Source of the DNA: a virus
Direction: 5' to 3' (one strand)
DNA: 23,129 nt
IMG/VR virus record: IMGVR_UViG_3300042860_003596
Location: 1-23,129 of that record
A model generated the notes under the pieces. The model saw only the letters and a list, made by a program, of their open reading frames with translations. It was not told the DNA's origin and did no database searches. The position numbers and the translations under genes are program-made. Shown piece by piece: positions 3,345 to 22,739 of the stretch; position 1 is the first letter of the stretch, and each line of letters opens with the position of its first letter.

Positions 3345-3353
3345 GGAGAGACC

Positions 3354-6925: not shown

Positions 6926-6949
6926 CATCAAAGGAACCAGGAGACACAC

Positions 6950-7420: not shown

Positions 7421-7447
7421 TCGCACACCCCACCACAGGACACCCAC

Positions 7448-7891
7448 ATGGCACTTGTTTCTTCCACCGAGATCCGTCCCACCGACATCACTACGTTTAT
7501 TGAGTTTAGCCCGCTCGCTGCTGGTGTCACTATGCCCACCAGCACTGCTGCCGGTTTCCGCTGCTTCTACACCAGTCGCCCGACCAAGATCATGGCGATG
7601 TCCGTGGTCAGCGGAAACGTGACGGTTGGCGGCGTGACCTACACCGCCGCGTACGATGTCCGTGCGATTGACGGAACCGTCACTCCCGTGACTACGCTCA
7701 ATACTGCCCTTGCAACGACTGCCGTAACCGCCGTTGCCAGCAAGGCAAATGTGTGCCCCATTGATGCGCAGGACAGCGACGCGCTTCCCCCGACCATTCC
7801 GGCCGGCGCATGGGTTGGTTTCAACATTCCGTCGACCGCTACCAATGCCAGCTCCGTTTGCGGCGTCCTCATCACCTACCGTCCTGTGTGA
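7448..7891 (+). CDS. Small beta-rich virion protein, candidate decoration protein
   Basis: The product has 147 residues. The ATG at 7448 lies 27 bases past the previous stop with a weak AGGA upstream. The sequence is Thr/Ala/Val-rich with short beta strands and three Cys residues, no membrane segment, and a C-terminus of VCGVLITYRPV that resembles the strand-basic ending of the 156-aa neighbour. The two genes look like a pair of small structural proteins made in quantity, although I cannot align them convincingly. Decoration, head-fibre or tail-sleeve protein are all possible. Confidence 0.7.
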   Translation: MALVSSTEIRPTDITTFIEFSPLAAGVTMPTSTAAGFRCFYTSRPTKIMAMSVVSGNVTVGGVTYTAAYDVRAIDGTVTPVTTLNTALATTAVTAVASKANVCPIDAQDSDALPPTIPAGAWVGFNIPSTATNASSVCGVLITYRPV

Positions 7892-7904
7892 TGGGAGGTG
7901 ACGG

Positions 7905-10900
7905 GTGTTTGATCCGATCCGGATCTATGACAAGCCGGCCGTCATCCTGACCCAGCTTGGGAACGGGATTGCGACAACCGACAGCGTCCGCAGGGCTCTA
8001 TTCGACCCTGCGGCGCTGTCGCCTCGTGAGCGCGCCTCGTATGCGGACGAGTTGAAGAAGTCGGCGGGTGGCAACCCGGTCGTGGATACGGCCATCGACG
8101 TGCTTGCCAACCCGCTGACCTGGCTGGCGTTCGTCTCCGGCGGGGCGATGGCCTCGAGGAACTTTGCGAGGTCCGGCCGCTTCTTCACCGGTGGCATGGC
8201 TGGTGGGGCCTACGGCGAGTGGGGCATGGCGAAGTGGCCGTTCCTGCGGTCGATTCGTGCTTTGAGCGCGTCCCAGGAACTGAGCAACACGCCGATCCCC
8301 GCACTGCTTGAGTCGATTCCCGGCGAGATGCAGCGGTACCAGAAGGAGTTCAGCCGGCACGTATCACCGGGCGTAGACCGCATCCGCAGGATCCTGAGCG
8401 ACAAGCATGGCGTTGAGGTGAAGAGCCTTGACCCAGCGATGGCTCCGAATGCGGCGGTCGAGCAGGATCTGGTGACGATCCGTCTGGCATTGCAGTCTAA
8501 GTTGTCGGGCTGGGACAAGCAGTCGAACTTCAAGTTCGTGGCTGGCGTGCGTCCCAAGAACTACGAGATCCTTACGACTTGGGAGGACTCGGCGGGGAAG
8601 CTGCACAAGGAGTGGGTGAACGTCGGCACCAAGGAGAACTTCAAGAAGTACCAAGATGCGTTTGCGGAGAACCGCAACAACATCAAGTTCTCCAGGAAGG
8701 CGGACGGGAGCTTTGATGCTGACGTGACATTCATGGATCGCGCGGATCATGACGGCACCGCGCTCGAGGACCGGCGGTCGGGCAACTACCGGGCGTTCCA
8801 GATCGTGGACCCGAAGACCCAGGTGCGGGGCGACTCGCCCTTGCACTCGGGTATCGACGTCGACGTGATCGACGTGGAACGCGGCGCGCTGGTGGGGGAC
8901 ATCGTGCAGCTGAACCGGGACGTGAAGGAGTTCGGGCTGCAAGAGCTTATCGACGGCGTCGACCGGATGCGGACCGAGGTGAAGGTCCGGCTGTACGGAA
9001 ACGATGACGTGTTCCGCAAAACGGGTACGTTCGAGGCCGACCGCTCCAAAATACTTAAGATCGCCCGAGGGGCTAGGAACGACCTTGAGAAGCAGGGCGT
9101 GATTGGGCGGGATGGCCGGTTCAACTACGAGGAGGCGGCGACGGCGAACTCCATCCTGACGGAGGAGGTTGCCGGCGCGATCATCGAGTACGGCAAGAAG
9201 AACCCCGGTCGCGGGATGAAGGCCGACCAGATCGAGCAACTCATCGCGGACACGTACTCGATCCTGGTCGACGACCCGAACTACCTGCCGCGCAACACGA
9301 CGGCGGTCTTCAGGGACGTCGGCGGGACGCGGGTCGAGGTGGAGCCGAGCCAGTTCTCCCGGCCGGGCTCGTTCCTAGAGGGGTTCGGGCGGGACATCGT
9401 GGCGTCCGGTCGCACAAAGTTCCGGGTGCGGGACGCGATCCCGCTGGACCCGCAGGACCTTGCGTCGTTGGCAGAGCGGTACGGGGACACCGAGGAGCTG
9501 AATGCGGCGCGCAACTTCTCGCGGTCGCGGGTGATGAACCAGCAGCGGATGGACGTGCGCGGGACGTACAAGGTGCACAGGCTGGCACCGGACATTGCAC
9601 TGCAGAAGTACATCGTGTCGAGTGCGCGGGACGCGGTGATGTTTTCGGATGACCCGTTCAAGAACCTGGGTGTCGTGGCGGCGCTCAAGGACTTCCCGAG
9701 TCCGCGGACGAACGTGCGGTACCCCGGCCCCACCGGCGAGAAGGGTGGTATGCCCGCGAGCTGGCGTCCGTATGGGGGCGGGCCGAAGCCGGCGGGCGGG
9801 TTCTCGTTGAACGACCTGATCGAGACGCAGATGCTGGCGCTCGAGGAGCAGTCGGGTGCGGATGGGTACGTGGCGCGCGCGATGCGGCAGCACGTCCTGC
9901 CGGCGGTGTTTGGGTACCGGACGGTGGAGGACGGGGCGTCCAAGGCGATGGGCAGCTGGTTGCGGGGGAAGGCGCTGAGCGTCGCCAACAGCGACTTCTT
10001 CAAGGAGGTCGAGCGGCAGGGCGGCGTGGCAGAGCGGTTCGTTCGTGGGATGCGGAGGTACGGCAGCACCCCACCGAGCGACTCCACGAGCTTCGGCAGC
10101 GACGTGGCCCGGATCTTCTACGGGTCGACCATCGGCCTGAACCTCAACACGGCGCTGACCAACCTGCTGCAGCCCCTGCACAACCTGCACCAGATGGGGT
10201 TCATGAATACGGCCCGTGCATATGCACAGACCATTGAGCAGATGTACGCCTACGGGAAGGCGCGGGTGGCGCTTGGCAAGGGTGCGAGCCCGGCCCAGAT
10301 TGAGGAGGCGATGGACCGCACCATGAACCGCACGCTGACGGGCGGGGTGCGTGTGAACCTGCGGGACATCTCGGACATCTCCAATGCGTGGGATGCGGTC
10401 GAGAAGCCGGGCTTCGGGGCGCAGATCTCCCAGGGCGGGGGCGGGGTGTTCGAGGCGGTCATGAAGCCGTTCCAGCTGACCGAGATGGTCAACCGGATGG
10501 CGACGGCCAACGCGGTCCTGAACGCGGCGGAAGAGGGCTGGAAGGCGGGTGGGCGCTCAAGCCGGCTGGATCCCTATCGGGCCATCCAGGAAGCGCGGTC
10601 GGCGGTGGAGACCATGCAGTTCGGCAGCAGCCCGCTGAACCGCCCGCTGATGTTCTACACCGACTACCTGCGGAACCCCGCGATCAGGCAGTTCCTCCAG
10701 TTCCCGGTGCGCTCGGCGGTCAACATCGCCACCATGCCTGGGCTGGTGGGGGGTACCCGGAACGTGCTGGGCATGGAGGTCACGAGCCCGTTTGGCATTG
10801 CCTCGGTGGATACCTTGCGGATGCTGGGCGTGTCGGCGATTGCGTATGAGGTGGGCAAGAACATGCTGGGCGCGGACCTGAGCCGTGGCCTTGCCGTTGG

Positions 10901-11612
10901 CTTCGTCCCGGACATCGACGTGGAGAAGGACCAGCAGCTCATGCTGCCCGTTCCCCCGTTCGCAGATGCCATGTACTCGGGCGTCCGCTCCTTCATGGCC
11001 GGTGGGGACCGGGAGATCCTGAGCGACGTGGTTCCGCTCGTGGTGCCTGGTGGCGTAGCGATCAGCAGGGCGTTGGGAGCGATGCCCAAGAGCGAGACGC
11101 TGCAGTCGCTCGGGTTGCAGAAGCGGTACGCGGCGTGGGACCAGGCGGACGCGGAGGGGAACGTGCCGGTGTTCGATCAGAACAGCCGGTTGCTCGGGAT
11201 GTACTCCGGGTCGGACATCGTCCTGCGGAGCATGGGCACGGACATGGGTCGGTTCCAGAACCAGGGCGAGGTGACCCAGTTCCTTCTGAAGAACCGCGAC
11301 CAGATGCGGGATCTGAGGCGGCAGTGGATTGCGTCTGTCCTGGCGAACGACATGTCCAAGGCGTCAAAGATCAAGGCGAACTACGAGCGCCAGTTTGGGA
11401 TGCCGCTGACGGTGACGCAGCAGCAGATGAAGGAAGCCGTGCGTATCCGGGAGGAGAGCGTCGCCGGCCGAACGCTGCAGTCGATGGACAAGGACCTGCA
11501 GCAGCAGTATCGGGACGTCATGCAGGCAACGGTTCCGCAGGCCATGCTCGGCCCGCAGATGCCCCTGGAACAGGGGTCGATGTACGTGTGGTCGAATCTA
11601 CCGAAGCGCTGA
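7905..11612 (+). CDS. Giant virion protein (1235 aa), candidate internal/ejected protein
   Basis: Start GTG 7905 is set by GGAGGTG at 7894-7900. It is the last and largest gene of the late operon. The N-terminus (residues about 55-85) has a moderately hydrophobic segment around NPLTWLAFVSGGAMA. The middle is a long soluble mixed region. Residues about 735-1000 are helical and include a stretch around GLNLNTALTNLLQPL, then MFYTDYLRNPAIRQFLQFP. Such NL-x-AL-NL-Q helices resemble the C-terminal parts of very large phage and plasmid 'polyvalent' proteins carried with incoming DNA. The C-terminal 150 residues are a Met/Gln/Lys-rich helix. No lytic transglycosylase or polymerase motif was found. 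An ejected protein analogous in position to T7 gp16 is my inference. The last 95 bases overlap an opposing gene. Confidence 0.8.
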   Translation: MFDPIRIYDKPAVILTQLGNGIATTDSVRRALFDPAALSPRERASYADELKKSAGGNPVVDTAIDVLANPLTWLAFVSGGAMASRNFARSGRFFTGGMAGGAYGEWGMAKWPFLRSIRALSASQELSNTPIPALLESIPGEMQRYQKEFSRHVSPGVDRIRRILSDKHGVEVKSLDPAMAPNAAVEQDLVTIRLALQSKLSGWDKQSNFKFVAGVRPKNYEILTTWEDSAGKLHKEWVNVGTKENFKKYQDAFAENRNNIKFSRKADGSFDADVTFMDRADHDGTALEDRRSGNYRAFQIVDPKTQVRGDSPLHSGIDVDVIDVERGALVGDIVQLNRDVKEFGLQELIDGVDRMRTEVKVRLYGNDDVFRKTGTFEADRSKILKIARGARNDLEKQGVIGRDGRFNYEEAATANSILTEEVAGAIIEYGKKNPGRGMKADQIEQLIADTYSILVDDPNYLPRNTTAVFRDVGGTRVEVEPSQFSRPGSFLEGFGRDIVASGRTKFRVRDAIPLDPQDLASLAERYGDTEELNAARNFSRSRVMNQQRMDVRGTYKVHRLAPDIALQKYIVSSARDAVMFSDDPFKNLGVVAALKDFPSPRTNVRYPGPTGEKGGMPASWRPYGGGPKPAGGFSLNDLIETQMLALEEQSGADGYVARAMRQHVLPAVFGYRTVEDGASKAMGSWLRGKALSVANSDFFKEVERQGGVAERFVRGMRRYGSTPPSDSTSFGSDVARIFYGSTIGLNLNTALTNLLQPLHNLHQMGFMNTARAYAQTIEQMYAYGKARVALGKGASPAQIEEAMDRTMNRTLTGGVRVNLRDISDISNAWDAVEKPGFGAQISQGGGGVFEAVMKPFQLTEMVNRMATANAVLNAAEEGWKAGGRSSRLDPYRAIQEARSAVETMQFGSSPLNRPLMFYTDYLRNPAIRQFLQFPVRSAVNIATMPGLVGGTRNVLGMEVTSPFGIASVDTLRMLGVSAIAYEVGKNMLGADLSRGLAVGFVPDIDVEKDQQLMLPVPPFADAMYSGVRSFMAGGDREILSDVVPLVVPGGVAISRALGAMPKSETLQSLGLQKRYAAWDQADAEGNVPVFDQNSRLLGMYSGSDIVLRSMGTDMGRFQNQGEVTQFLLKNRDQMRDLRRQWIASVLANDMSKASKIKANYERQFGMPLTVTQQQMKEAVRIREESVAGRTLQSMDKDLQQQYRDVMQATVPQAMLGPQMPLEQGSMYVWSNLPKR

Positions 11613-12099
11613 GTGGCATCCAGAACTCCAAGATCCCCGGTACGTGGTGCCAGCGCACCGCACCCAGGACTGCCCGGTCCACGAACCTCGATCCGACCCA
11701 GAGTGGATCGAGACCGGGGCACGCCGCGGCGACCTGCGAGACGGTCTTGCGGTTGATGCTCGTGGACACGTGGATCAGCTCGCCGGTGGGCCACACCCGC
11801 GTGTAGGTGTTGGCGACCGGACGGAGGATCCAGGGCTCGCTTTCGTGCGGCCCCACCAGGTCATCGGGCTCGGGGCGGTCCTTGGCGATGGCGTACCGTA
11901 TGAGCGCCCACCAGCGGCGAGGGTTGGTGGGGAACTCGCAGGTGTACAGGTGGGACGTACCGCGCTTGCGCTGGCGCGACGGCATCCACTCCTTGGGGAT
12001 CGAGGTGTTCAGGTACAGGCGCTGGTGCTCGAGGCGTCCGCCACGGCCCTGGGCCCAGCCCGTCTCAAGGGTAAGTCTCTGCGCTCTTTCCAGGTTCAT
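11518..12099 (-). CDS. Hypothetical protein, 193 aa, terminal gene of the - strand arm
   Basis: The codons look real: third positions are mostly G or C, as in neighbours. ATG 12099 overlaps the upstream gene by 35 bases and has no clear ribosome site, so a later start such as ATG 11988 (MPSRQRK) is possible. The protein is basic, Trp- and Arg-rich, with a globular core around RRWWALIRYAIAKD and GILEFWMPL. Membrane segments and catalytic motifs are absent. The last roughly 30 residues are Thr/Pro/Ala-rich, lie antisense inside the giant virion gene, and may be non-conserved read-out after the domain ends. I do not recognise the family. Confidence 0.6.
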   Translation of the reverse strand: MNLERAQRLTLETGWAQGRGGRLEHQRLYLNTSIPKEWMPSRQRKRGTSHLYTCEFPTNPRRWWALIRYAIAKDRPEPDDLVGPHESEPWILRPVANTYTRVWPTGELIHVSTSINRKTVSQVAAACPGLDPLWVGSRFVDRAVLGAVRWHHVPGILEFWMPLSASVDSTTRTSTPVPGASAGRAWPAEPLPA

Positions 12100-12547
12100 A
12101 CGGTGCTTCGCGGATCTTCTGCAGCTGGCCGATGATCATAAGGGAATCCTTGCGGACGTCCTGCATCCAGTCGATCATGCCGGTGGTGGTGATGCCCTTG
12201 GAGGACAGGTCAGCGAGGTGCTGGACCATGCCGATTCCGATGATGCCGGACTCGGTCTTCTCCATCAGATCCTCGAAGAACTTCGGTTGCGTGATGCGGT
12301 GCACCCGTTCGATGGCGCAGTCTGGGAAGCGCTGCTGCCAGCTGTAGTTGATGCGGTCAAGGAAGGCCGGCGATGGGTGGGTGTAGTAGATGAAGCCCCA
12401 CGAGGAGTTGACCTCGCTCGTGACGCAGATGGACCACCTGTCAGGATCCATGCCGTGAAGGCTGTTGCAGGCGGAGATGTGTTCCTTGATGTCCTGATAC
12501 GAACCTTGGTCAGGAATCGAGACGACGATCGTAGATTCGTAAGGCAT
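12065..12547 (-). CDS. Hypothetical protein, 160 aa
   Basis: The product is a mixed alpha/beta soluble protein, slightly acidic. ATG 12547 is preceded by GGATGAGGGT. The first 70 residues resemble a small alpha/beta domain (a strand at STIVVSIPD, helix QDIKEHISACNS, then strands ending GFIYYTHPS). The second half is helical. No motif identifies it. It is the first gene after a strong - strand terminator, so it and the following 193-aa gene probably need read-through or their own promoter, which I could not identify in the 142 bases upstream. Confidence 0.75.
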   Translation of the reverse strand: MPYESTIVVSIPDQGSYQDIKEHISACNSLHGMDPDRWSICVTSEVNSSWGFIYYTHPSPAFLDRINYSWQQRFPDCAIERVHRITQPKFFEDLMEKTESGIIGIGMVQHLADLSSKGITTTGMIDWMQDVRKDSLMIIGQLQKIREAPYEPGKSAETYP

Positions 12548-12570
12548 ACCCTCATCCTAAAGGTAAGAAG

Positions 12571-12607
12571 TAAAAGGGCCCCGTGGATTTTCATCGACAC
12601 GGAGCCC
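12571..12607 (-). terminator. Rho-independent terminator after the ssDNA-binding gene
   Basis: Read on the - strand, a 10-bp stem pairs GGGCTCCGTG (12607-12598) with CACGGGGCCC (12585-12576), with one G-U pair and a 12-base loop. TTTTACTTCTTA follows directly. Stem strength and the T run are typical of intrinsic terminators. It ends the recombination operon about 80 bases after the stop at 12690. Confidence 0.75.
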
Positions 12608-12635
12608 CTATCCGGGGGTTCGTACCCACCAATGA

Positions 12636-12670
12636 GGGGAGGGGGCTCCTTGCGGGAACTCCCCCTCCCC
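12636..12670. other. Perfect G/C hairpin, 10-bp stem
   Basis: GGGGAGGGGG at 12636-12645 is perfectly inverted as CCCCCTCCCC at 12661-12670 with a 15-base loop. It lies between the 175-aa gene stop and the terminator, about 30 bases before the terminator stem in the direction of - transcription. There is no T run, so it is more likely an mRNA 3'-stabilising or pausing structure, or a G-rich structural element, than a second terminator. Confidence 0.6.
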
Positions 12671-12689
12671 GGCTGGTGGGGCTTGTGGG

Positions 12690-13217
12690 TCAGGTCGACA
12701 GGGCCTTCTGCAGGAACTCCTTGCGGTACTGCTTGCCGTCCTTGGCCGTATCGTACTGGCACTTGACGACCACGGCAATCACCGAGTCGGTGTTTTCCAG
12801 ACGGTGGGACAGGTCGGCCAGGGCAGCACCGATGTCCTGCGGCTCACGGCGGAGGCAGGTGGTGAGGTGGCCCTTGAGGCGGCGCAGCTCGATCTCGGCG
12901 CGGGTCTTGGCGCCGTTGTCGGTCAGGGCACCCATGTCCGCGGGGAGGCGGATCGGGGCACCCATCCAGCGGCGCGGCTCGTCCTGACCGGGGTCGTTGA
13001 TGAGCTGGTAGGAGAACTGGATCTCGAAGCCGGGGAACGTCTGCCCGTCCTTCTGCTTGAACGTGCTGTCCTGCATGTTCACGTCGGTGACCAGGCAGTC
13101 GTGGTTGCCCTCCTCCGGCCACCAGCCGAGCGAGCCGAGACCCGAGTCGGCCTGAACGGACTGGAAGTTGTTGTTGAGGGCGGCGAAGACAGTCTTGACC
13201 TTGTTGTCAATGGGCAT
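12690..13217 (-). CDS. Probable single-stranded DNA-binding protein of the Sak4 module
   Basis: The product has 175 residues. I chose ATG 13217 (MPIDNKVKT) because GGAG lies six bases upstream. The longer frame back to 13334 would run into the preceding gene and adds non-coding-like basic sequence. Residues about 35-75 give alternating strands (GNHDCLVTDVNM, then TFPGFEIQFSYQLI) typical of an OB-like fold, followed by a helical stretch (105-140) and a final strand VIAVVVKCQY. No catalytic residues are seen. Phage operons with a Sak4 ATPase and a Cas4-like nuclease commonly carry such an SSB or DUF669-type protein beside them, and this gene directly follows the ATPase. The call rests on context and fold style, so it is moderate. 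Confidence 0.6.
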   Translation of the reverse strand: MPIDNKVKTVFAALNNNFQSVQADSGLGSLGWWPEEGNHDCLVTDVNMQDSTFKQKDGQTFPGFEIQFSYQLINDPGQDEPRRWMGAPIRLPADMGALTDNGAKTRAEIELRRLKGHLTTCLRREPQDIGAALADLSHRLENTDSVIAVVVKCQYDTAKDGKQYRKEFLQKALST

Positions 13218-13272
13218 AGCAAACTCCGAATAGGGTGAGAAGTGAAACACGGAACGTGAGAAGGAAGGCGAG

Positions 13273-13298
13273 CGCGCCCCCCGCGTCAGCGGGGCGCG
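13273..13298 (-). other. Stop-codon hairpin between ATPase and ssDNA-binding genes
   Basis: On the - strand CGCGCCCCGC and GCGGGGGGCGCG pair as a 10-bp stem with a two-base G bulge and TGAC loop. The loop holds the TGA of the upstream ATPase gene (13288-13286). A pyrimidine-rich run follows but no true T tract. It could be an attenuating terminator or mRNA processing element that adjusts expression of the downstream binding protein. Confidence 0.5.
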
Positions 13299-14185
13299 TT
13301 CGCCGCATCGTAAGCAGCCTGAAGGGTTGCCCATGCAGCCTCGGTGGGAAGCTTCAGGGTTTCCATGGGTTGCATGGTGCGGACCTTCGCGATGCCCTCG
13401 AGCTTGGGGTTCGAGAACGTGGCAAAGTGCTGCCGCACCTTCTTGCTGGTGACGTTGTTCTTCTTAATGATGCGGTCGCCGACCTTCACCTCGACCTCGC
13501 GTGATTCCTCAACGACATCCCAGGTGGTGGTGATGGGGACAACCAGATCAAACATGGGGAACATGCGTGCGTACAGGCCATCCGAGATGAGGATCTTGTA
13601 CTCCTCGACGTGCTGGTTCTCGGAGAGCGGGATGTGCTTGCGGGACAGGTGCGCGATGTAGAAGACTCCGTAACCGTGCCGGCGCAACGACGAGCCGAAC
13701 TCGATCAGGGTGTCGAACAGGCGCTCCCATCCCAGCCGGCCGTCGACGTCGGTGAACTTCTCCCGACCGTACAGGCTGGCGATGTGCGGACGGAGCAGGC
13801 GGATGGCAGCACCGAGCGTGTCGATGACCACGGTCTCGGGGCGCGGCTGATTGCGAACGGCAAGGTCGACGAGCTGCTTGTGCTTCTCCTCGACGAGCTT
13901 CCACGACAGGACCATGGGGTTGCCCCGCTCGTCCTGCGCCCGACCGTCAGCACCGGGCGTCGGCCACATCACTGCCTCGCTGGTGGGGCAGACCGCCGGC
14001 GTCTCGTCGAGGTTGATGATGAAGGCATTGGGATTGGACTGGAGCAGGAACGACTTTCCAGCGCCCGCTTCGCCAACAACCAGGCCGAGCATGCGCCCAA
14101 GAGGGACGCGGCCAGTGACCACCGAAGAGCCGAGGGAAGGGTACTTGGAAGCAATTGTCTTACCGGTTGCAAGGGCATGTGTCAT
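13286..14185 (-). CDS. Sak4-like RecA-fold ATPase (recombinase/annealing protein)
   Basis: The product has 299 residues. Walker A is GEAGAGKS at residues 38-45, and Walker B is TVVID at 118-122, followed by helical LGAAIRLLRP. A later strand, GVFYIAHLSRK (about 180), resembles the motif-3 strand of the RecA core. The size and single-domain AAA_24/RecA-like layout match phage Sak4 proteins, which act on single-stranded DNA with an SSB partner in annealing-type recombination and replication. The neighbours support this: a Cas4-like nuclease two genes upstream and a likely SSB just downstream. The start is ATG 14185 with AAGG seven bases upstream. A RAD55-like or generic phage NTPase is the alternative. 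Confidence 0.8.
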   Translation of the reverse strand: MTHALATGKTIASKYPSLGSSVVTGRVPLGRMLGLVVGEAGAGKSFLLQSNPNAFIINLDETPAVCPTSEAVMWPTPGADGRAQDERGNPMVLSWKLVEEKHKQLVDLAVRNQPRPETVVIDTLGAAIRLLRPHIASLYGREKFTDVDGRLGWERLFDTLIEFGSSLRRHGYGVFYIAHLSRKHIPLSENQHVEEYKILISDGLYARMFPMFDLVVPITTTWDVVEESREVEVKVGDRIIKKNNVTSKKVRQHFATFSNPKLEGIAKVRTMQPMETLKLPTEAAWATLQAAYDAANAPR

Positions 14186-14194
14186 GATGATGCC

Positions 14195-14599
14195 TTAGTC
14201 GAGGAAGGTGGGTGCACGCATACCGCCGGGCAGGACCATCCTCTCGCCTGCCGCAAAGGTTGCCGGAACATCCGGCATGCTGATTGGTTCGTCGAACTGC
14301 GCCTCGACCGAGTCGTCGGCGGAGTCCTGGCTGACGGGCTGGACCTCGCGGGCAGCCGGCCGGTAGCCGGGGATGCTCACGACGACCTTCCGTTCGAACT
14401 TGATGTTCAGCTTCTCGCACCACTCGGAGAAGGTTGCCATCGTGATGCTGGTGCCGTGGTTCTCGTTGAAGAGGAGGAGCAGCGAGGAGCGGGACTCGAT
14501 GTTCTCGCCGCAGCGCCTGACGATCTCCGCGATCTTCGGGGCAATGACGGACTCAAGGATCTCCTGCTCGAACTGCATGAATGGATGGGGTCTGCTCAT
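14195..14599 (-). CDS. Hypothetical protein, 134 aa, between nuclease and ATPase
   Basis: ATG 14599 overlaps the nuclease stop by four bases (ATGA) and is preceded by GGGAGA. Residues 8-75 are helical with a possible helix-turn-helix-like pair (a helix ending SSLLLLFNEN, then TMATFSEWCEKLNI). The following VVVSIPGY strand leads into a Pro/Asp/Gln-rich disordered C-terminal half. The fold could be a small DNA-binding accessory of the recombination operon, perhaps with a winged-helix style N-terminus. I do not recognise the family and the DNA-binding idea is only inferred. Confidence 0.75.
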   Translation of the reverse strand: MSRPHPFMQFEQEILESVIAPKIAEIVRRCGENIESRSSLLLLFNENHGTSITMATFSEWCEKLNIKFERKVVVSIPGYRPAAREVQPVSQDSADDSVEAQFDEPISMPDVPATFAAGERMVLPGGMRAPTFLD

Positions 14600-15819
14600 G
14601 CGATGTCTCCCTCGGGCACCGCATCATCGCGGTCCCGTTGCACGAAGTTCTCGCCGCGCACGACGTCCGGCCACACGACCGGGTCCGTCAGCATGAAGGG
14701 CATGTACGCGCTCGGCGTGCCAGTGCCCTGAATCGGGTCGCCCATCTCGAAGTTGTCCGGATAGGGTTCGCGGTTCGCATATGAACGGCAGAACTCGAGG
14801 CGCGAATTGTACTGCGAAACCAGCTTGGAATCAAGCAAATGCGTCGATGACGTGAAAGAAATGTTGACGCACGGATTCGTCAGTCGCTCGGGCGCAAGAT
14901 GTAGGTACTCGTCTTCGCCGACATACCACTGGTAGCAGCGACCCTCGTAGAAGTGCGGGTCGGGCTCGCCGAGATAGATCTTCTCGTTGCGCGGTTCGCC
15001 CTTGCGCGGACCCGACTTGAGCGGGCTGGTGTCCAGCGTGTAGGCCCGGTCCTTCATGCCGAACTCGATGGTGGGCTTCTGCACGGCAATGTGGATGACG
15101 CCACCCACCCGCTTGGCGGAGTACTCGGAGAGCGGCAGTTGGCTCATGACGTGGAAGTAGTGCTGCGTCTGGAACTCGATGGGGCACGCCTGCAATCGGT
15201 CGACGGGGCTTGCGCTCGTGGTCTTGAAGTCCACGATCCACAGCGTGTCGGGATCCTTGGGGAACGTGATGAGCGCATCGGGCTGGATGACGCAGTCCTG
15301 GTACCGGAGCATCGGTTCCTGGGCCACGACGTTGACGGCGCGCAGCCACCCGTCAAGCTTGCCGGTGGGGCCTTCGCCGTCGGGACGGAACGAGACCTGG
15401 ATGGCAGCGGAAAACCAGGCCCACGCGGTACGTGCGTCCTTCTCCTCGCGGGCAAGGATCTCGCGGACCAGCTCGGGGGACTGGCCGGCGGACTTGCCGT
15501 AGCGGCGCAGCTCCTCGAGGCGCAGGTCGATGGCGTTGTCGTACATCTCGAGCGCGGCCTCACGGTCCTTGCGCAGGCAGTAAGCGGCGAAGGCAAGGTG
15601 GGCCCACGATCCACGGGACAGGGCGGCGCTGTACTTGGATGCCTTCACGAGGCCGAGGCGGCGCGAGAGGTACCAGGTGAACGGGCAGGTGCGGAGCGAG
15701 CGGTAGTCGGACGAGCGGATGCCCACGGTGCGGGGCGAGAGGCCGTGGTAACGCAACCATTCGGCTGCCTCCATGCCCCCGCTGGTGGGGACCTTGGGCG
15801 TGTCTGTTTCGGGTGGCAT
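14596..15819 (-). CDS. Cas4-like PD-(D/E)XK family exonuclease
   Basis: The product has 407 residues from ATG 15819, which has AGGAG eight bases upstream. The longer frame to 15885 runs through the preceding hairpin and is unlikely. The nuclease signature is in order: CPFTWYLSRR (about 45-54), RGSWAHLAF with His74, QPDALI with Asp181, WIVDFKTT giving Asp197 and Lys199, and QTQHYFHV (about 217-224). This is the H-x(n)-D-(D)xK-QxxxY pattern of Cas4/RecB-type nucleases. Such nucleases supply single-stranded ends to Sak4-type annealing proteins in phage operons, which fits the neighbours. One Cys is in the usual N-terminal position and three more lie in the C-terminal half, but not in the tight spacing of Cas4, so an iron-sulfur cluster is uncertain. 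It is longer than most phage Cas4-like proteins. Confidence 0.82.
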   Translation of the reverse strand: MPPETDTPKVPTSGGMEAAEWLRYHGLSPRTVGIRSSDYRSLRTCPFTWYLSRRLGLVKASKYSAALSRGSWAHLAFAAYCLRKDREAALEMYDNAIDLRLEELRRYGKSAGQSPELVREILAREEKDARTAWAWFSAAIQVSFRPDGEGPTGKLDGWLRAVNVVAQEPMLRYQDCVIQPDALITFPKDPDTLWIVDFKTTSASPVDRLQACPIEFQTQHYFHVMSQLPLSEYSAKRVGGVIHIAVQKPTIEFGMKDRAYTLDTSPLKSGPRKGEPRNEKIYLGEPDPHFYEGRCYQWYVGEDEYLHLAPERLTNPCVNISFTSSTHLLDSKLVSQYNSRLEFCRSYANREPYPDNFEMGDPIQGTGTPSAYMPFMLTDPVVWPDVVRGENFVQRDRDDAVPEGDIA

Positions 15820-15846
15820 GAGGTTGTCTCCTGAGGATGGAAATGA

Positions 15847-15887
15847 GAGTGCGCGGGCGGCGCACCACGCGACCCGCCCGCGCACTC
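15847..15887. other. Perfect 14-bp inverted repeat in a 102-base intergenic gap
   Basis: GAGTGCGCGGGCGG (15847-15860) is exactly inverted at 15874-15887 with a 13-base loop. It is the strongest hairpin in the window and lies upstream of the nuclease ribosome site, after the membrane-protein cluster. A smaller 6-bp hairpin (15904-15921) directly follows the stop of the 38-aa gene. There is no T run, so it may mark a transcript boundary, a rho-dependent site, an operator or an RNA-processing site. Confidence 0.65.
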
Positions 15888-16692: not shown

Positions 16693-16738
16693 GTCTTATC
16701 CAGCCATCTCTTCGGTTGGCTTGAGGTCTATTTCCATG

Positions 16739-18778
16739 TCAGGCGATGAGCTTGCGAATGATTCCGGTCGTGATCACGGTGTATCCATTATCCGGCGAAG
16801 CAGCGTCCGACAGACCTGTGAATGTGGATGGACTGTAAGTCGGCGTTGTCGTGACGGTGGGCTGACTTCGCAGATGCGCTGCATAGAGAGTGTTTGACAG
16901 GTTCTGATACAGGTTTCTGTCCCTGATCTGCTGCGCCGTCAAGATGGATGCAATGTCCACAACCGTGACATTCTTTCCATCGTTTGAATTCGTAGTCGCC
17001 CAATTTGCTGCCGCTTCTGCTACTGCGGGACGATCCGTGTCCCATGTGCCTGCGCCGGGATCTCCCGCAACGACTGGGTGTGTCACGGACATCACGAACG
17101 ACAGGTCTGCTGCCGGATAGCCGAGCGTTGTGACCCACACGTTGTAGACTGCATCTCTGATTCTTGCGGCATTGGTCGTCCAAGTCGATCCTGTTTCCGA
17201 TCCATTGATGCCGCTGTTGTGCCACCACACAACGCGCCCAGATCCACCTGCTTCAATCTGTCGCTCACGAAGTTCCTTCAGGTACGCCTCCAGGTACTTG
17301 GGCGTAGCTTCAACAAGATCGGCCAGCAATTCAGTCGTAGCGCCGCCAAAGTAGTTGAGGCAGCTTACGCTGAATCCTTTATAACTCCTGCGAATCACCG
17401 AGTGATAGAACGCTGCAAACGGCCCTGTAACTCGATATGTCGTTCCGGTGTTGTAACCGTCCCACGCACACTTCATCTGGTCCGGCGCTCCGCCAGTATT
17501 GGTTGAGCTGAAGTTAAGCTTCTCCGTGGCATATCCGGTGCCGCCGCTCGTCGGGATGTCGCTTGCGCTCCCTGCGACAAGCGTATTGCTTCCCTTCATG
17601 GCACGAAGTCGGAACGTGCCTCCAGTCGTAGCAAACTTTCCATACACGAGGCGGTATTGCAGAGACACCCCCGCACCACCAGTTGGGCCGCTTGCAAGTT
17701 GACTACCTCCATTCAGTCGAACACTTGTGCCGCCGCCAAATGATGTGTAGGTTGTGCCTGCCGGAACAAACGCAACACCAATATTGAAAGATGCTGGCTT
17801 CCAAAATGCTTTGGCAATCACAAATGATGCCGTACTACTTGGCGTGCTTACTGACCAACCGCTAACTGTTGCCGTCTTGGTCGTGCCGTTGTATGCCGTA
17901 ATTTTCCCGTAATTGAATGAGGAGCCGGAGGGGTACGTGCTTCCTACCGCACCCGACAAAATGCCGATGAACATTCCGGTGTATGCGTTATTCACCGATG
18001 ACGCACCAGCATCAAGCTGCAGCGTCGTGGATGAGGAAGCAACAGCGGTGTTTTCCCGAACAAACAAATTGTCGAACGTGGTGTTGAGAGCCGTGGCATC
18101 TGTATCACTTGCGACAGCAATCCGGTTAGTAAGCGAATACACAAATCCAACATCCTCTTGTGATCTTCCATTCCAGATGTACCCGTTCCACTGCATAAAC
18201 ATCCCGCCGTAACGCTCATTTCCGCCATCTTCAGAATCGCATGGATGCAACGGCGTTGCGTAATTCGGCGCTCCAAGCGCAGCCATTGCCGAAGACCATC
18301 CGTAGGTGTACCCGCATACTCCCGGCGATCCAGCGTTGCTGTCTCCGAACACCACGATGTCCACGGAATCGTTTCCGGCCATCACATCTCGAAGAAATAC
18401 GCCGGCACGGCTGCTCCCGTACACACCAGCCTCGGGACTGTCCACCGATCCCACCCGCTGCGCCGAGAATGTTCTTCCAGATGTAACACTTGAAGTAGAA
18501 ACAAACTGAGCATTGAAAGAAGTTGTTGTAATTACTGCTCCGCCGGAGGTGGGTATAACAAGATCAGAAGAAACAATTGTTCCGCCAGCAAGCAGCTGAA
18601 CAACATCTCCTGACTGGAGATTGACCGGCTCGTTATTTAGCGCAGGTGTGGGGCCATTGACGCCGAACACGGTGTCGGTCGCGGCGGTGGCGACGGTGAC
18701 GAAGCCGGGCGTGGTGGTCATCTTGACGCACGCGTATGCGGGAATGGTGCCGGACGCTCGGATGGTGGGTGTGGTCAT
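16739..18778 (-). CDS. Cement-like domain fused to SGNH hydrolase (head fibre, tail fibre or spike)
   Basis: The product has 679 residues. Residues 1-110 match the neighbouring 107-aa cement-like protein across their length (shared TTTP, GTI-S-DL, QF and TSG-F-A-R positions). The rest reads as an SGNH-type esterase: block I GDSN at 145-148 (Ser147), block II-like YFGGATT at 476-482, block III-like SGIN with Asn525, and a candidate catalytic His635 in YAAHLRSQ. No Asp sits at the usual DxxH spacing. Between blocks I and II lies a roughly 320-residue insertion with a beta-rich, carbohydrate-binding-like part (about 325-460). SGNH domains on phage fibres usually deacetylate surface polysaccharide. 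The domain fusion suggests attachment to the capsid or to a tail site of the same geometry. Composition falls sharply after about residue 40. ATG 18778 follows the upstream stop by one base. Confidence 0.75.
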   Translation of the reverse strand: MTTPTIRASGTIPAYACVKMTTTPGFVTVATAATDTVFGVNGPTPALNNEPVNLQSGDVVQLLAGGTIVSSDLVIPTSGGAVITTTSFNAQFVSTSSVTSGRTFSAQRVGSVDSPEAGVYGSSRAGVFLRDVMAGNDSVDIVVFGDSNAGSPGVCGYTYGWSSAMAALGAPNYATPLHPCDSEDGGNERYGGMFMQWNGYIWNGRSQEDVGFVYSLTNRIAVASDTDATALNTTFDNLFVRENTAVASSSTTLQLDAGASSVNNAYTGMFIGILSGAVGSTYPSGSSFNYGKITAYNGTTKTATVSGWSVSTPSSTASFVIAKAFWKPASFNIGVAFVPAGTTYTSFGGGTSVRLNGGSQLASGPTGGAGVSLQYRLVYGKFATTGGTFRLRAMKGSNTLVAGSASDIPTSGGTGYATEKLNFSSTNTGGAPDQMKCAWDGYNTGTTYRVTGPFAAFYHSVIRRSYKGFSVSCLNYFGGATTELLADLVEATPKYLEAYLKELRERQIEAGGSGRVVWWHNSGINGSETGSTWTTNAARIRDAVYNVWVTTLGYPAADLSFVMSVTHPVVAGDPGAGTWDTDRPAVAEAAANWATTNSNDGKNVTVVDIASILTAQQIRDRNLYQNLSNTLYAAHLRSQPTVTTTPTYSPSTFTGLSDAASPDNGYTVITTGIIRKLIA

Positions 18779-18779
18779 G

Positions 18780-19103
18780 TCAGGCTCGGTATGCGTTGAA
18801 GACGTTGCCGGAAGTCTTGGACTCGATGGCGATGAACTGCCCGCCGGTCACGCTCTTAATGAGCGAGCCGGGCGTAGTGCCGGGGACTAGAAGGTCGCCG
18901 GATGTGATGGTTCCCTCGGCGATCACCTGGTATGCGGGACCGTCCTGGAAGACGACGGGCTGGCCGGCTGCAACCGTGGTGGCGGATACTCCGAGCACAA
19001 CCTTGCCTTCGGTGGATCGCGAGACCAGAGCAGGCGTCGTCGTGAGCGAGACGCACTGGTTGATGGAGATTGACTCAGATGCAAGGAAGGTTTGCATAGT
19101 CAT
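18780..19103 (-). CDS. DUF2190-like capsid cement/decoration protein
   Basis: The product has 107 residues. It is a small all-beta protein with the pattern seen in DUF2190-type decoration proteins: an N-terminal strand with CVSLTTTP, a GVS turn, a PVVFQDG strand, then EGTITSGDLLVPGT and a final IAIES strand. Those proteins bind the outer capsid and stabilise it. The same domain begins the following 679-aa SGNH protein. ATG 19103 overlaps the stop of a 25-codon frame that itself carries a remnant of this domain. A second in-frame ATG at 19097 is also possible. Naming rests on pattern recognition, not on an alignment I could compute. Confidence 0.65.
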   Translation of the reverse strand: MTMQTFLASESISINQCVSLTTTPALVSRSTEGKVVLGVSATTVAAGQPVVFQDGPAYQVIAEGTITSGDLLVPGTTPGSLIKSVTGGQFIAIESKTSGNVFNAYRA

Positions 19104-19177
19104 GTTTCAATCTGCACTTGGAAGGTGTCGATGGTTGCGTTGGTCGCAACAGCCACGAAACCAGGCGTGCTTGTCAT
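19100..19177 (-). pseudogene. 25-codon remnant of the cement-like domain
   Basis: The frame reads MTSTPGFVAVATNATIDTFQ plus five residues, then stop. Its first 15 residues match residues about 20-35 of the SGNH fusion protein (MTTTPGFVTVATAAT), while its ending echoes the C-terminus of the gene just upstream (ATIDTF-V). It begins two bases after that gene's stop and its TGA overlaps the next ATG by four bases, so it may still be translated as a coupling peptide. Most likely it is debris of a duplicated or recombined cement domain. Confidence 0.55.
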
Positions 19178-19216
19178 GGTCAGGTAAATGTAACAGTGAA
19201 GGTGTCGATGGTCGCC
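19121..19216. repeat. 18-bp direct repeat pair, 77 bases apart
   Basis: GAAGGTGTCGATGGTTGC at 19121-19138 recurs at 19198-19215 with one difference (C for T). One copy ends the 154-aa gene and the other lies in the 25-codon remnant. They mark a short duplication or recombination point between the two frames. Confidence 0.7.
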
Positions 19217-19644
19217 TTGCTACCGAAATAGTTTCTCACCGTAAACGTGAGAGGACCGATTGGTATGTCGCAGTATGCGTTGAAGGACACGATGTCGCCC
19301 GGCCTGATCGTGTAGTAGCTCGTTGCCGTGACCGACGGATCTACCGTGATAATGTTCGAGTTTGTAATGTCGCTGGCATTTGAGGTCGGCGACGTGTAGA
19401 TCAGAAGGGATCCGCCGTTTGCTTCCCAGAAAGTGTTTGCGGGTACGCTGATCTCAAGGACGGAGGTGTTCGTGAACCCGGTTACGGTCACGAAGTTTCC
19501 GTTCGCGCCATCGTTGGCGAATCCGCTGATGTTGTTCCAGTTCAGGGTGCCGAGCGTCTGGTCTGCAATGGACTTCGTTCGTTCCCGCTGAGTGCGGAAG
19601 AACGTATTGCCGTACATGTACTTGGTTCTCGAACGCTGCAGCAT
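19180..19644 (-). CDS. Small beta-rich virion protein, unknown (154 aa)
   Basis: I chose ATG 19644 because it overlaps the preceding TGA by one base (TGATG). The longer frame to 19806 only adds His/Arg-rich out-of-frame sequence. After a basic N-terminus with TKYMYGNTFFRTQRERTKS, the protein is nearly all beta strands with many Thr, Asn, Ser and Gly. It ends in a strand that contains the repeat shared with the downstream remnant. There is no membrane segment or catalytic motif. It belongs to a four-gene structural cassette with cement-like and SGNH proteins and is probably a virion surface protein such as a decoration or fibre-attachment component. Confidence 0.7.
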   Translation of the reverse strand: MLQRSRTKYMYGNTFFRTQRERTKSIADQTLGTLNWNNISGFANDGANGNFVTVTGFTNTSVLEISVPANTFWEANGGSLLIYTSPTSNASDITNSNIITVDPSVTATSYYTIRPGDIVSFNAYCDIPIGPLTFTVRNYFGSKATIDTFTVTFT

Positions 19645-20141: not shown

Positions 20142-20634
20142 GGTCGTCCTGGGTGATGAGCCACCTGGCGGTCCACTCACCTGCAGCCCTGCGCTGGCCT
20201 GCCGTGCCGGTGGGGAGGACCATGAGACCGATGGCGTACTCCTGCAGGATACGCATAAGGGCGTCGATCGCAAGACCCGGGTGCGGCTTTCCTGCCTTGG
20301 GTTCAGGCATCCCCACCAGCCCCTCGAGGAGGAGGAGCGGGCGGGGAGTGCCATCCCGGAGACGGCGGCAGCAATCGGCGAACCGGCGGCGGCCGTCAGG
20401 GGTCAGGAGGTTCTGCGTGATCTCGTCGATGGATCCCTTCCGCTCGACGACGGCTGGGTTCCCGTCGATCTGGTAGTCACCCGTCTTGAGCGTGCGCTTC
20501 TGTGTGCGGATGCGTACCGTGATACCCGACTGACGGCACGGGTCACGCGATGGATCCAGGCAGACGATGTGCTCGGGGAAGGTGAACGGCTTCTTCTCCC
20601 GCTCGTCAACAAGGATGGTGTACTCGCGCTTCAC
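19960..20634 (-). CDS. ERCC4-type structure-specific nuclease with out-of-frame C-terminal extension
   Basis: The product has 224 residues from GTG 20634, which lies 29 bases inside the polymerase 3' end. The ERCC4/XPF nuclease core is visible: LVDEREKKPF (Asp10), TGDY (Asp53), then AVVERKGSIDE giving the ERKxxxD motif (Glu64, Arg65, Lys66, Asp70), with LLLLEG and a helix-rich end to about residue 163. Such enzymes cut branched or flap DNA and may resolve phage replication or recombination intermediates. Residues about 165-224 are read in a different frame from the 165-aa structural gene over 182 bases. They are His/Asp/Gly-rich and look non-native, as if the original 3' end was replaced. Confidence 0.8.
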   Translation of the reverse strand: MKREYTILVDEREKKPFTFPEHIVCLDPSRDPCRQSGITVRIRTQKRTLKTGDYQIDGNPAVVERKGSIDEITQNLLTPDGRRRFADCCRRLRDGTPRPLLLLEGLVGMPEPKAGKPHPGLAIDALMRILQEYAIGLMVLPTGTAGQRRAAGEWTARWLITQDDHVIRHTHDRREELPPGIVHCGNCSDGAGQDADRDQASFGSGQHGVRCEPELPEAEDLQQR

Positions 20635-22507
20635 CTGTGCCTTCAGTGTACGACAGCTTGAAGGTGAAGGGCAGGCTCGTGCCGAACAGTTCGTTGGACC
20701 AGATGAAGATGGACTTGGCGATGGTGTCCCGGACTACGGCAGGATTCGTCTGGCTGGTGGTGAAGATCAGCTCGTCGTGCAGCTGGAGGTTGAAGCGGTA
20801 CTGGTCGACCGTGTCCTGCATGAGTCGGGACTGGATCATGGTCATGAACACGGCCGAGGTGCCCTGCACCATGAACGAAGTGGTGTCGTGGATAGTGCGG
20901 GCAGGGCTGTGGGTGTAGAGGATGTCCGCTTCCATGAGGCGGAGCTTGCCTACCTTGCCGTCATCGAACCAGGCCGAGCGGGTGTTGGCATAGTCCTGCC
21001 AGGCGGAGAAGATGGGCAGGGCACGGACCTCAGGCAGGGTGATGAGCCTGCCGGTCGTGGCGATGGCGGTGCGCCACGCTTTGTCGGGACCGCCGCCGTT
21101 GACCCCCACCAGCAGGGCGGTCTTGGCGAGGTTGCGGTCGCCGGGCAGGGCGAGGTACGGGTCGTGGGCAAAGGCGAAGTCCCGCATCTTGCGGTCGCGG
21201 GAGATTGCTGCTGCCACACGGAGTTCGAATGCGGTCATGTCCATCCGCCACACCCGCTGGCCGGTGGGGTCGGTCATCAGTTCGCGGATGTCCTTGGACC
21301 AGGTCTGGGCTGCGGGTCGCCGGCATGAGAGGCGCACGGACTGCACGCCGCCCTCGTCGGTGGGGGCTCCGTACCAGGAGGGGTAGCAGGAGACCTGGTC
21401 GCCGAGGGTGAAGCATCCGGACGGGATGTACTCGTCGTTTCCACGGTGGATCCGCTGGGACAGGATCTTCCGGATCTCCTGCTCGATGCTGTGCTCGGAT
21501 GCGTAGGTCGAGATGTACTCGAGGAGCTGGGCGTCGGCGTCGTTGGGGTTGCGTTCGCGGAGGATGCCGGCCAGGACCTTGCGGTTCTCCCGGTTGTTGC
21601 GGACGCTTCGCTTCTTGTCGGAGTACTCGAGGAGGCGCGAGTCGTGCAGCTCCAGCATGTAGTCGGCTGCAGCTGACGAGGCGCGGTCGATCAGCTCAGA
21701 TTGGGAGGAGCCGCTGCCCTCGCCGGACGTGAAGATCTCCGACTTGTAGAGTTCGGCGCCGATCACTTCGGTGGTGTGGGCCAGGTTGTCGGCGGCACAG
21801 TGCAGCTCGTAGCGGTTGAAGTGCTGGCCGTTGTGCGAGAGGTCGAGGATGTTCCAGAGGCGGTCGGAGTGGAACATGATGGCGGACGGCGTGAGCTTGC
21901 GACCCTGCTCATCGTGGATGCGCTGGGCCAGGGCGCGCGCTGCGAGCACTGCGTTGTGCGTGTCCTGCGCGTTGTACTTGATGGCGTCGGCGCACATGGG
22001 GAACGGGAACTTGCCGGCCTTGAGCGTGCGGTCGTAGGCGAAGGCGCCGAGTGCGGGGCCGAGTGCCTTGAGCGAGCGCTCCTTGCGGGTACCGGAGTGA
22101 AGCCACGACAGGATGATCGTGTCCACCAGGGTGGGCAGCGGGTACTCGACGAGCCACGAGGCGAAGCCGGAGAACTCGCGCAGGTACGACAGGTCGTACA
22201 CGATGTTCGATCCGACGATGGTGTCTGCATTGCGGACCAGGTCGAGGACCAGGTGCTGCTCGGTGCACATGTCGAAGACCGCCGTCTCCTGCGGTTCCCA
22301 GCCGGTGGGGTCCGAGGGTTCGCCGGAGACGATGGTCACGGCGCACTGCGGGACGAGGCGGCACGGCAGGTGGACGCGGTCGATCTGCTTGGAGAGTGCG
22401 GGGTTGAAGACGGTCTGGTCGGGACACGCACCGGAGCCCTTGTCCCAGCAGGAGAAGGCGCCGTATGTCTCGACGTCGAGGGAGATGATGAGCGGCTTAG
22501 TACTCAC
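20606..22507 (-). CDS. Family A DNA polymerase with 3'-5' exonuclease domain
   Basis: The product has 633 residues from GTG 22507, which overlaps the upstream stop by 11 bases and has AGGAG upstream. The longer frame to 22732 is a shadow of the 80-aa gene. Exonuclease motifs are present: LDVET (Asp11, Glu13), SNIVYD (Asn101, Asp105), and YNAQD (Tyr178, Asp182). Polymerase motif A is MDMTAFELR (Asp423, Glu428), motif B RNLAKTALLVGVNGGGP (Arg458, Lys462), and motif C LHDEL (His577, Asp578). All metal ligands are present, so it should be active with proofreading. There is no 5' nuclease domain, as in most phage enzymes. The Tyr normally found in motif B is absent. This is the phage replicative polymerase; helicase and primase are not in the window. 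Confidence 0.92.
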   Translation of the reverse strand: MSTKPLIISLDVETYGAFSCWDKGSGACPDQTVFNPALSKQIDRVHLPCRLVPQCAVTIVSGEPSDPTGWEPQETAVFDMCTEQHLVLDLVRNADTIVGSNIVYDLSYLREFSGFASWLVEYPLPTLVDTIILSWLHSGTRKERSLKALGPALGAFAYDRTLKAGKFPFPMCADAIKYNAQDTHNAVLAARALAQRIHDEQGRKLTPSAIMFHSDRLWNILDLSHNGQHFNRYELHCAADNLAHTTEVIGAELYKSEIFTSGEGSGSSQSELIDRASSAAADYMLELHDSRLLEYSDKKRSVRNNRENRKVLAGILRERNPNDADAQLLEYISTYASEHSIEQEIRKILSQRIHRGNDEYIPSGCFTLGDQVSCYPSWYGAPTDEGGVQSVRLSCRRPAAQTWSKDIRELMTDPTGQRVWRMDMTAFELRVAAAISRDRKMRDFAFAHDPYLALPGDRNLAKTALLVGVNGGGPDKAWRTAIATTGRLITLPEVRALPIFSAWQDYANTRSAWFDDGKVGKLRLMEADILYTHSPARTIHDTTSFMVQGTSAVFMTMIQSRLMQDTVDQYRFNLQLHDELIFTTSQTNPAVVRDTIAKSIFIWSNELFGTSLPFTFKLSYTEGTGEARVHHPC

Positions 22508-22739
22508 GGGCTTCGTACTCCTGGAGTTGGGAGAGCAGACGGGTGTTGCGTTCGCGCAGTTCCTTGTTGACTCTTCGCAGCATGGCGATTTCCTCGATGG
22601 TCTGACGGAGGGCGCGCTTGTCCGCGAACGAGGAGTCCTTCGCGGCGCTGCTTGCGTAGCGAGAGATGAGCTGCGACAGGATGTCGGACGGGCCGAGGCA
22701 GGTGGCGCCGGCGTGCTGAAGCCAGATGTCATCGTTCAC
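22497..22739 (-). CDS. 80-aa coiled-coil protein
   Basis: GTG 22739 overlaps the upstream TGA by four bases and has AAGGAGG seven bases before it. Residues 1-40 are mixed. Residues about 40-78 form a clear heptad helix (RQTIEEIAMLRRVNKELRER and onward) like a leucine zipper. Nothing suggests a membrane segment or an enzyme. Its last codons overlap the polymerase start, so the two are translationally coupled, and it may be a polymerase accessory or regulator. The family is not recognised. Confidence 0.7.
   Translation of the reverse strand: MNDDIWLQHAGATCLGPSDILSQLISRYASSAAKDSSFADKRALRQTIEEIAMLRRVNKELRERNTRLLSQLQEYEAREY

Follow-up and report, generated by a model that had tools for sequence, protein, structure and literature searches.

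We analyzed a 23,129-nucleotide stretch of viral DNA (positions 1 to 23,129 of IMG/VR record IMGVR_UViG_3300042860_003596; hereafter, the window), which encodes a fused gene that joins a capsid-cement-like head to an SGNH-type enzyme part and contains an abrupt step in G+C content. This step is probably a seam left by recombination in a virion surface protein of modular build, in which a capsid-decoration-type base carries exchangeable tips. Relatives of this phage bear markedly different tips at the corresponding position, so the step appears to be a scar of recombination, not the border of a foreign enzyme. Comparison with relatives showed the gene to be composed of three pieces (codons 1–39, 40–105, and 106–679) with different closest relatives. 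The encoded protein would consist of a base of approximately 110 residues with a predicted capsid-decoration ("beta-tulip") fold, joined by a short linker to a C-terminal module of the SGNH type that resembles a peptidoglycan O-acetylesterase.

Relatives of the fused gene

Scanning of viral contigs with the whole fused protein yielded 15 loci (L001–L015). L001 was a near-identical record (99.8% over 11.8 kb). L002 had the same enzyme part and a different head (49% protein identity), and L003–L007 and L009 had the enzyme part with a short N-terminus and without the head. L008 combined the same head with a distant enzyme part, and L010–L015 combined it with other tips, L010 and L011 having no SGNH module. 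The tips of L013 and L014 matched the pectate-lyase-like beta-helix family PF12708 (E values of 4.5e-14 and 8.3e-11, respectively), L012 encoded a protein identical to that of L013, and the tip of L015 was similar in appearance. The L010 tip matched virion-structural and tail-spike PHROGs, and the tips of L010 and L011 showed, by eye, what we take to be YadA-type head repeats. In the head statistics, the identical L012 and L013 proteins were given one count, and L015 was excluded because its head, at about positions 670–845, was not in one reading frame, owing to either a sequencing error or a broken gene.

In bacterial and archaeal genome contigs (one genome per species), none of the 78 pattern candidates for the enzyme and none of the 10 for the head were confirmed; the known relatives are therefore other phages. 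A tblastn search with P0001, the head, and the L002 cement protein found no record among 50,697 phage records.

Base composition of the fused gene

Direct counting gave a G+C of 20 of 60 bases at 18481–18540 and 44 of 60 at 18661–18720, exactly the 33% and 73% reported in the initial annotation of this sequence. Among the 23,070 overlapping 60-base intervals of the record, 11 had a G+C count of 20 or less (minimum, 19), all of them starting at 18468–18481, and 1,049 had a count of at least 44, so the GC-rich side is ordinary for the record. Pairs of 60-base intervals lying 180 bases apart and differing by at least 22 formed a single cluster at 18468–18482. The fall in G+C at third codon positions (GC3) between adjacent 40-codon blocks reached 0.625 in the fused gene, the largest among the 17 window genes compared, the second largest being 0.50.

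Along the fused gene, GC3 was 0.90 in codons 1–39, 0.33 in codons 41–107, and 0.56 afterwards. The G+C of four-fold-degenerate sites dropped alike, from 0.90 in codons 1–39 to 0.31 in codons 40–107, which rules out amino-acid content as the cause of the step. The first of these pieces was drawn from homology, and the 0.90/0.31 contrast is thus no independent test; segmentation of GC3 without preset borders is such a test, and it divided the gene after codons 40 and 103, with 2 of 500 shuffles reaching the level of each break.

By composition, the gene falls into three pieces. G+C is lowest in the second half of the cement-like head and not in the enzyme; bases 18481–18540 correspond to about codons 80–100, within that head. 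The N-terminal cement-like codons had initially been described as resembling the rest of the phage and most of the remaining gene as departing from it. The drop in GC3 actually starts inside the head, at codon 39/40, and the segmentation ruled out the head/enzyme border as its place. In the window gene, the change in composition lies at most about three codons from the change in relatedness.

Two seams in the fused gene

The first piece of the gene showed nucleotide identities to the window of 0.966 in L008, 0.915 in L012, 0.863 in L011, 0.855 in L010, 0.786 in L014, and 0.624 in L002, and the second piece showed identities of 0.52–0.60 to the six other heads compared. L008 shares with the window both this 5′ handle and a stand-alone paralogue of the head, with 402 of 438 bases identical (19097–18660); past 18660, the identity was down to about 60% within 30–60 bases, and successive 30-base blocks from 18710 to 18621 contained 29, 22, and 14 identical bases. 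The aligned downstream flanks of L008 were 66–83% identical. Four-fold sites followed the same pattern, with 26 of 28 (L008) and 21 of 26 (L012) agreeing with the window in codons 1–39 and 15 of 28 and 8 of 25, respectively, in codons 40–107, so the fall in identity is not a matter of protein constraint alone. Trees of codons 1–39 and codons 40–107 from six sequences rejected each other in the approximately unbiased test (p of 0.004 and 1.7e-72); with 117 bases and six tips in the tree of the first piece, the p of 0.004 is a modest test. The AT-rich second half of the head distinguishes the window from L002-type genes and is found also in L008, L010, and L011, where the GC3 of codons 41–107 is low too (0.46, 0.33, and 0.28, respectively).

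The second seam was defined by L002. The window and L002 were 97.7% identical at the nucleotide level over 16703–18464, and blastn analysis of 12.9 kb of L002 against the window found nothing in common beyond this interval. Only 1 of 20 codons was identical in 86–105, against 8 of 8 in 106–113, and the identity extended about 36 bases beyond the stop codon; codons 106–679 contained 19 silent differences and 16 changed residues. A low-confidence linker was predicted at residues 111–114 of the AlphaFold2 model. The L002 contig encodes a Mu-like head operon with a Mu-type portal (PF06074, E value of 6.3e-49), a Mu F protein (PF04233), Mu Gp36, and a probable major head protein (phrog_29, E value of 1.6e-4), and by its sequence it is a different phage from the window. 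The presence of a near-identical enzyme part in an otherwise different phage therefore indicates that the module moved recently between unrelated phages, with one end at the domain border.

Exchange of the block behind the handle

In blastn comparisons, the downstream flanks of L011, L012/L013, L014, and L015 matched the window to about 16.7 kb at 96–97%, and the upstream flanks matched from 19641 at 91–94% (L011–L014) or from 19164 at 97% (L015). An island of 110–151 bases was kept in L011–L015, with edges at 18651–18675 and 18784–18801, corresponding to the first 35–43 head codons; the tips of these loci are beta-helix or adhesin-like. L010 showed the same replacement pattern, with flanks at 72–81% and the island at 86%. 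These alignments showed that phages whose flanks match closely carry other tips in place of almost the entire block behind the handle.

L011 and L014 had extra matches of 43–45 bases at a short open reading frame (ORF) located between the upstream gene and the stand-alone paralogue. Comparison by eye with L010 and L014 gave the reading of this ORF listed in Table 1, its repeated end being the direct repeat D4, and we interpret the ORF as a trace that a previous exchange left behind. Homologous recombination between short common stretches would replace the tips, with the handle upstream and conserved small genes and recombination genes downstream serving as the common stretches. The phage's own Sak4-like protein and exonuclease would drive these swaps. 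Annealing proteins of the Sak4 kind have been reported to recombine diverged DNA and generate mosaics (PMC5499656).

Table 1. Positions of the fused gene, its pieces and seams, and associated features in the window
Feature	Position	Strand	Basis or remark
Fused gene, 679 codons, capsid-cement-like head and SGNH-type enzyme part	16739..18778	-	Open reading frame; AlphaFold2 model
Piece 1, head codons 1–39, shared 5′ handle, GC3 0.90	18662..18778	-	Nucleotide identity; blastn island
Seam 1 (codon 39/40), GC step	18659..18662	-	Decay of L008 identity; GC3 break after codon 40
Piece 2, codons 40–105, AT-rich second half of head, holding the bases with 33% GC	18464..18661	-	GC3; identity
Seam 2 (codon 105/106)	18463..18464	-	Onset of L002 identity; GC3 break after codon 103; linker
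Piece 3, codons 106–679, SGNH-type enzyme part with predicted Ape1-like fold	16739..18463	-	L002 identity; fold match
Interval replaced in L011–L014 except for the 5′ island	16702..19641	-	blastn
Stand-alone head paralogue, 107 aa, capsid-decoration-type predicted fold	18780..19103	-	Also in L008, upstream of its fused gene
Putative scar ORF, 25 codons	19100..19177	-	Reads as head-gene start run into second copy of the 3′ end of the upstream gene
Direct repeat D4, copy 1	19121..19142	+	91% identical to 19198–19219
Direct repeat D4, copy 2	19198..19219	+	Partner of 19121–19142
Sak4-like single-strand annealing protein, candidate recombinase	13286..14185	-	phrog_124, E 7.9e-10; PF13479, E 1.1e-13
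Exonuclease, possible partner of the annealing protein	14596..15885	-	phrog_1218, E 8.9e-12; PF12705, E 2.2e-11

Predicted fold and probable attachment of the head

The AlphaFold2 model of the fused protein, predicted as a monomer only, had a mean predicted local distance difference test score of 87.1 and a predicted template modelling score of 0.80. Head residues 2–111 matched the base of phi29 gp8.5 (Z score of 15.3, root-mean-square deviation of 2.0, 107 residues) and a capsid chain of HFTV1 (Z score of 14.5), which we take to be the capsid stabilization protein (CSP). The early description of the head as cement-like is thus borne out by a predicted fold of the capsid-cement type. The stand-alone paralogue also matched capsid chains, namely the phi29 gp8.5 base (14.7), HFTV1 (14.5), and Sf11 (11.5), as well as those of BB1, T1, and TW1. 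Neither P0001 nor P0002 matched a Pfam family at an E value of 0.1, and there was hence no match to PF09956 (DUF2190/Phage_cement_2) above the cut-off.

Among the predicted viral proteins of BFVD, the best matches to the whole model were uncharacterized phage proteins, and further matches were named tail fibre, hydrolase, head fibre, DUF2190, and pectate lyase superfamily. The BFVD entry A0A6J7WYD5, a pectate lyase superfamily protein of an uncultured Caudovirales phage with 40% identity over 81 alignment columns and no SGNH part indicated, suggests that public sequence data already contain a fusion of such a head with a pectate-lyase-type protein.

Like the protein described here, phi29 gp8.5 (PDB 6QVK and 6QYY; PMC6542822) has an N-terminal base of approximately 110 residues followed by a projecting C-terminal part. 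In phi29, gp8.5 binds as a trimer to quasi-threefold sites on the capsid. The stem of gp8.5 is a helix-turn-helix supercoil, whereas the tip here has an enzyme fold and relatives have beta-helix or adhesin-like tips. Because the C-terminal part is of the SGNH type and not a supercoiled stem, we do not file the protein as a gp8.5 homologue, only as one working like it. HFTV1, whose putative CSP chain matches the head, likewise has a deacetylase-like domain, which it bears on its capsid, and its CSP is reported to resemble the gp8.5 base; unlike here, the enzyme-like domain belongs to the head protein of the capsid turrets, which has zinc sites and is not fused to the CSP (PMC12494034). Decoration proteins have been reviewed in PMC7602432.

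Gene order in L002 was also examined and ran from a cement paralogue through the fused gene, a 499-aa gene, and a second cement paralogue to the probable major head protein, which places the fused gene of that phage in a head operon. L027 carried the paralogues and the fused gene in an L002-like order. Capsid attachment of the base is likely.

The SGNH-type enzyme part

Residues 116–679 matched Campylobacter jejuni Ape1 (PDB 8GKD and 4K3U) with a Z score of 17.9 over 329 residues at 10% identity, and the predicted enzyme model also matched many GDSL-type esterases, these and Ape1 together giving Z scores of about 12–18. Residues G145-D146-S147-N148 (block I, the GDS motif with the nucleophile Ser) were kept in all 35 module-bearing alignment rows, as were G479 (block II) and G523 and N525 (block III, GxN), which would form the oxyanion hole, although blocks II and III were assigned by sequence order from the motifs of the superfamily, not from superposed coordinates. 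H635, the block V His near the C-terminus, was present in 30 of the 35 rows, the others comprising three gaps and two other residues. The four residues after which SGNH enzymes are named are thereby all retained.

Ape1 is a bacterial enzyme and not a part of a virion, and the enzyme part is likened to it here by predicted fold alone. Two phage proteins can be likened to it by description only. The esterase tailspike of phage G7C is reportedly a tail-attached surface esterase used in adsorption. Klebsiella phage KP8 gp84, which mass spectrometry detected in virions, combines an attachment part at the N-terminus with an SGNH domain; its annotation is that of a tail fibre whose N-terminus is of the N4 type (PMC6950046).

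A possible display system on the capsid

The base would be located on the virion, probably on the capsid, and if it is, the tip would work as a head-fibre-like appendage. This tip would deacetylate or bind acetylated cell-surface glycan during adsorption, and its exchange would change what the phage recognizes. We tentatively propose, with less than even confidence, a swappable capsid display system in which the beta-tulip base is a fixed socket and the first 39 codons are a conserved recombination handle, and in which tips (SGNH esterase, beta-helix depolymerase-like, or adhesin-like) pass both among close relatives and from one phage to an unrelated one. Display and evolution of host-surface chemistry would then take place on the head instead of the tail.

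Tail spikes and fibres are well known to exchange their receptor-binding tips. If the base does sit on the capsid, enzyme-bearing head appendages would take part in the same kind of evolution, at a site seldom searched for host-range determinants. Our searches of open-licence PMC papers found none on a capsid-decoration domain fused to an SGNH enzyme; passages of a paper on a crassvirus structure describe head fibres of other kinds and contain nothing on fused enzymes (PMC10172136). The present case also shows that a GC step can mark a recombination seam inside a domain, so that judging by composition alone would put both the border and the donor in the wrong place.

Contrary evidence and alternative explanations

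Several observations weigh against a seam in a modular, capsid-borne enzyme. For the seam, GC3 breaks fell elsewhere in the relatives (after codons 65 and 126 in L008, 47 and 124 in L011, 149 in L012, and 528 in L010), segmentation of L002 and L014 gave no break, and composition break and seam coincide in the window only. For the enzyme, a profile built from the sequence of this part retrieved no PDB chain at E values up to 10, and the Asp three residues before the His was not at its usual place, which is occupied by Tyr in the window and by Asp in 2 of 35 rows of a gappy alignment. This Asp is usual in SGNH enzymes and is not one of the four residues that give them their name; given its absence there, we do not claim a full catalytic triad. 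For the coupling of head and enzyme, this head is attached to only 9 of the 59 non-identical SGNH modules, whereas 34 have 35 or fewer residues before the module; of the remainder, two are truncated at a contig end, and in 14 the N-terminal stretch is longer or the start is uncertain. Each set of identical proteins contributed one count, and two ORFs with a weak module match (E value >1e-9) were excluded from these counts and from the module G+C counts. For the capsid, the stand-alone paralogue also matched the C-terminal domain of the phi29 tail appendage gp12 (Z score of 10.3), some whole-protein BFVD matches were named tail fibre (Rhodococcus phage ReqiPoco6 and Klebsiella phage Sin4), the beta-helix tips are labelled tail spikes by PHROGs, and there are no recognizable capsid genes beside the fused gene in the window lineage.

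The gp12 match, the tail-fibre-named models, and the tail-spike-labelled tips make a tail position possible. The same mosaic could belong to a tail spike or fibre whose beta-tulip-like domain is an adapter anchoring it to the tail or neck, an arrangement that we regard as rather unlikely. It gains some plausibility from the SGNH-esterase tail fibre reported in KP8 and from the resemblance of the beta-helix tips to tail spikes. In the window, moreover, the fused gene lies downstream of a DNA polymerase gene (20606–22732, phrog_17) and is followed by small genes, of which one matches holins weakly (E value of about 0.05), and by the exonuclease and Sak4-like genes, and it is not next to recognizable capsid genes. 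None of the plus-strand genes of the window that were scanned matched a Pfam or PHROG family at an E value of 0.01, so its own capsid genes were not recognized. Against a tail position stand the higher scores of the stand-alone head with capsid chains than with gp12 and the location of the L002 gene between cement paralogues.

It is improbable that no recombination occurred at codon 40 and that codons 1–39 are instead under strong constraint at the DNA level, with codons 40–105 evolving faster and drifting in composition. The shortness of the first piece weakens its tree, the break coincides with a loop of variable length in the head alignment, and L008 and L011 have their composition breaks at other codons, all of which would fit such drift. 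Nevertheless, L014 groups with L011 in the first piece and with L012 in the second, phages with matching flanks swap nearly everything behind the handle, and a junction scar is present upstream.

The initial annotation had proposed an enzyme acquired from a lower-GC source and joined to a resident cement head, with the GC step marking the join. Its mosaic element stands, as the closest relatives of head and enzyme differ, and the enzyme part is indeed lower in G+C than the rest of the window (0.547 versus 0.626), whereas the border position and the low-GC donor do not. Of 59 non-identical SGNH modules, which are not independent of one another, 54 had a lower G+C than the remainder of the locus in which they lie, with a median deficit of 0.049. 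Close to the pattern that had been named in advance as telling against such an acquisition, the enzyme was lower in GC3 than the head in all seven L002-type genes (0.30–0.63 versus 0.61–0.87, the latter throughout the head). The non-SGNH tips of the window lineage were also low in GC3 (0.55–0.64 in L010, L011, L012, and L014). Low G+C is thus usual for the enzyme family and no sign of a low-GC donor. With the step at codon 40 and not 106, the lowest-GC piece being head sequence that is low also in L010 and L011 with other tips, and the enzyme relatives found being phages (64 viral loci, with no bacterial or archaeal candidate confirmed), this explanation is largely refuted and very improbable.

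Other observations

The plus-strand genes of the window lie at 2–12766 and include one of 1235 codons; many of these genes have orthologues in the same order in the L010 and L060 records. In the L010 record, the orthologues and their neighbours belong to families of unknown function or regulatory families only, and the L060 record encodes a terminase (phrog_38). The L060 record (49 kb) also contains L098, in which, at 10928–14981, a short-tag SGNH gene lies beside a separate gene encoding a cement head and a beta-helix-like part.

SGNH modules with other N-termini were also observed. In L051, L077, L079, L082, L087, and L070–L072, the module is joined to a different N-terminal domain of about 165 residues. 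Residues 1–173 of L077 matched PF09956 weakly (E value of 4e-4, below the cut-off) and the full 903-residue protein matched no family at an E value of 0.01; this match was not relied on. Many other SGNH modules open with short basic tags (for example, MRAIRTRQLF, MYTSMLRRALLS, and MYEYRNRTRSL) in place of the cement head, the carriers including L003–L007, L034, L039, L058, L061–L066, L078, L084, L085, and L091. Tags of this sort are found repeatedly in diverged phages and may serve as a further kind of anchor. The window gene at 19180–19644 begins like these short-tag SGNH modules.

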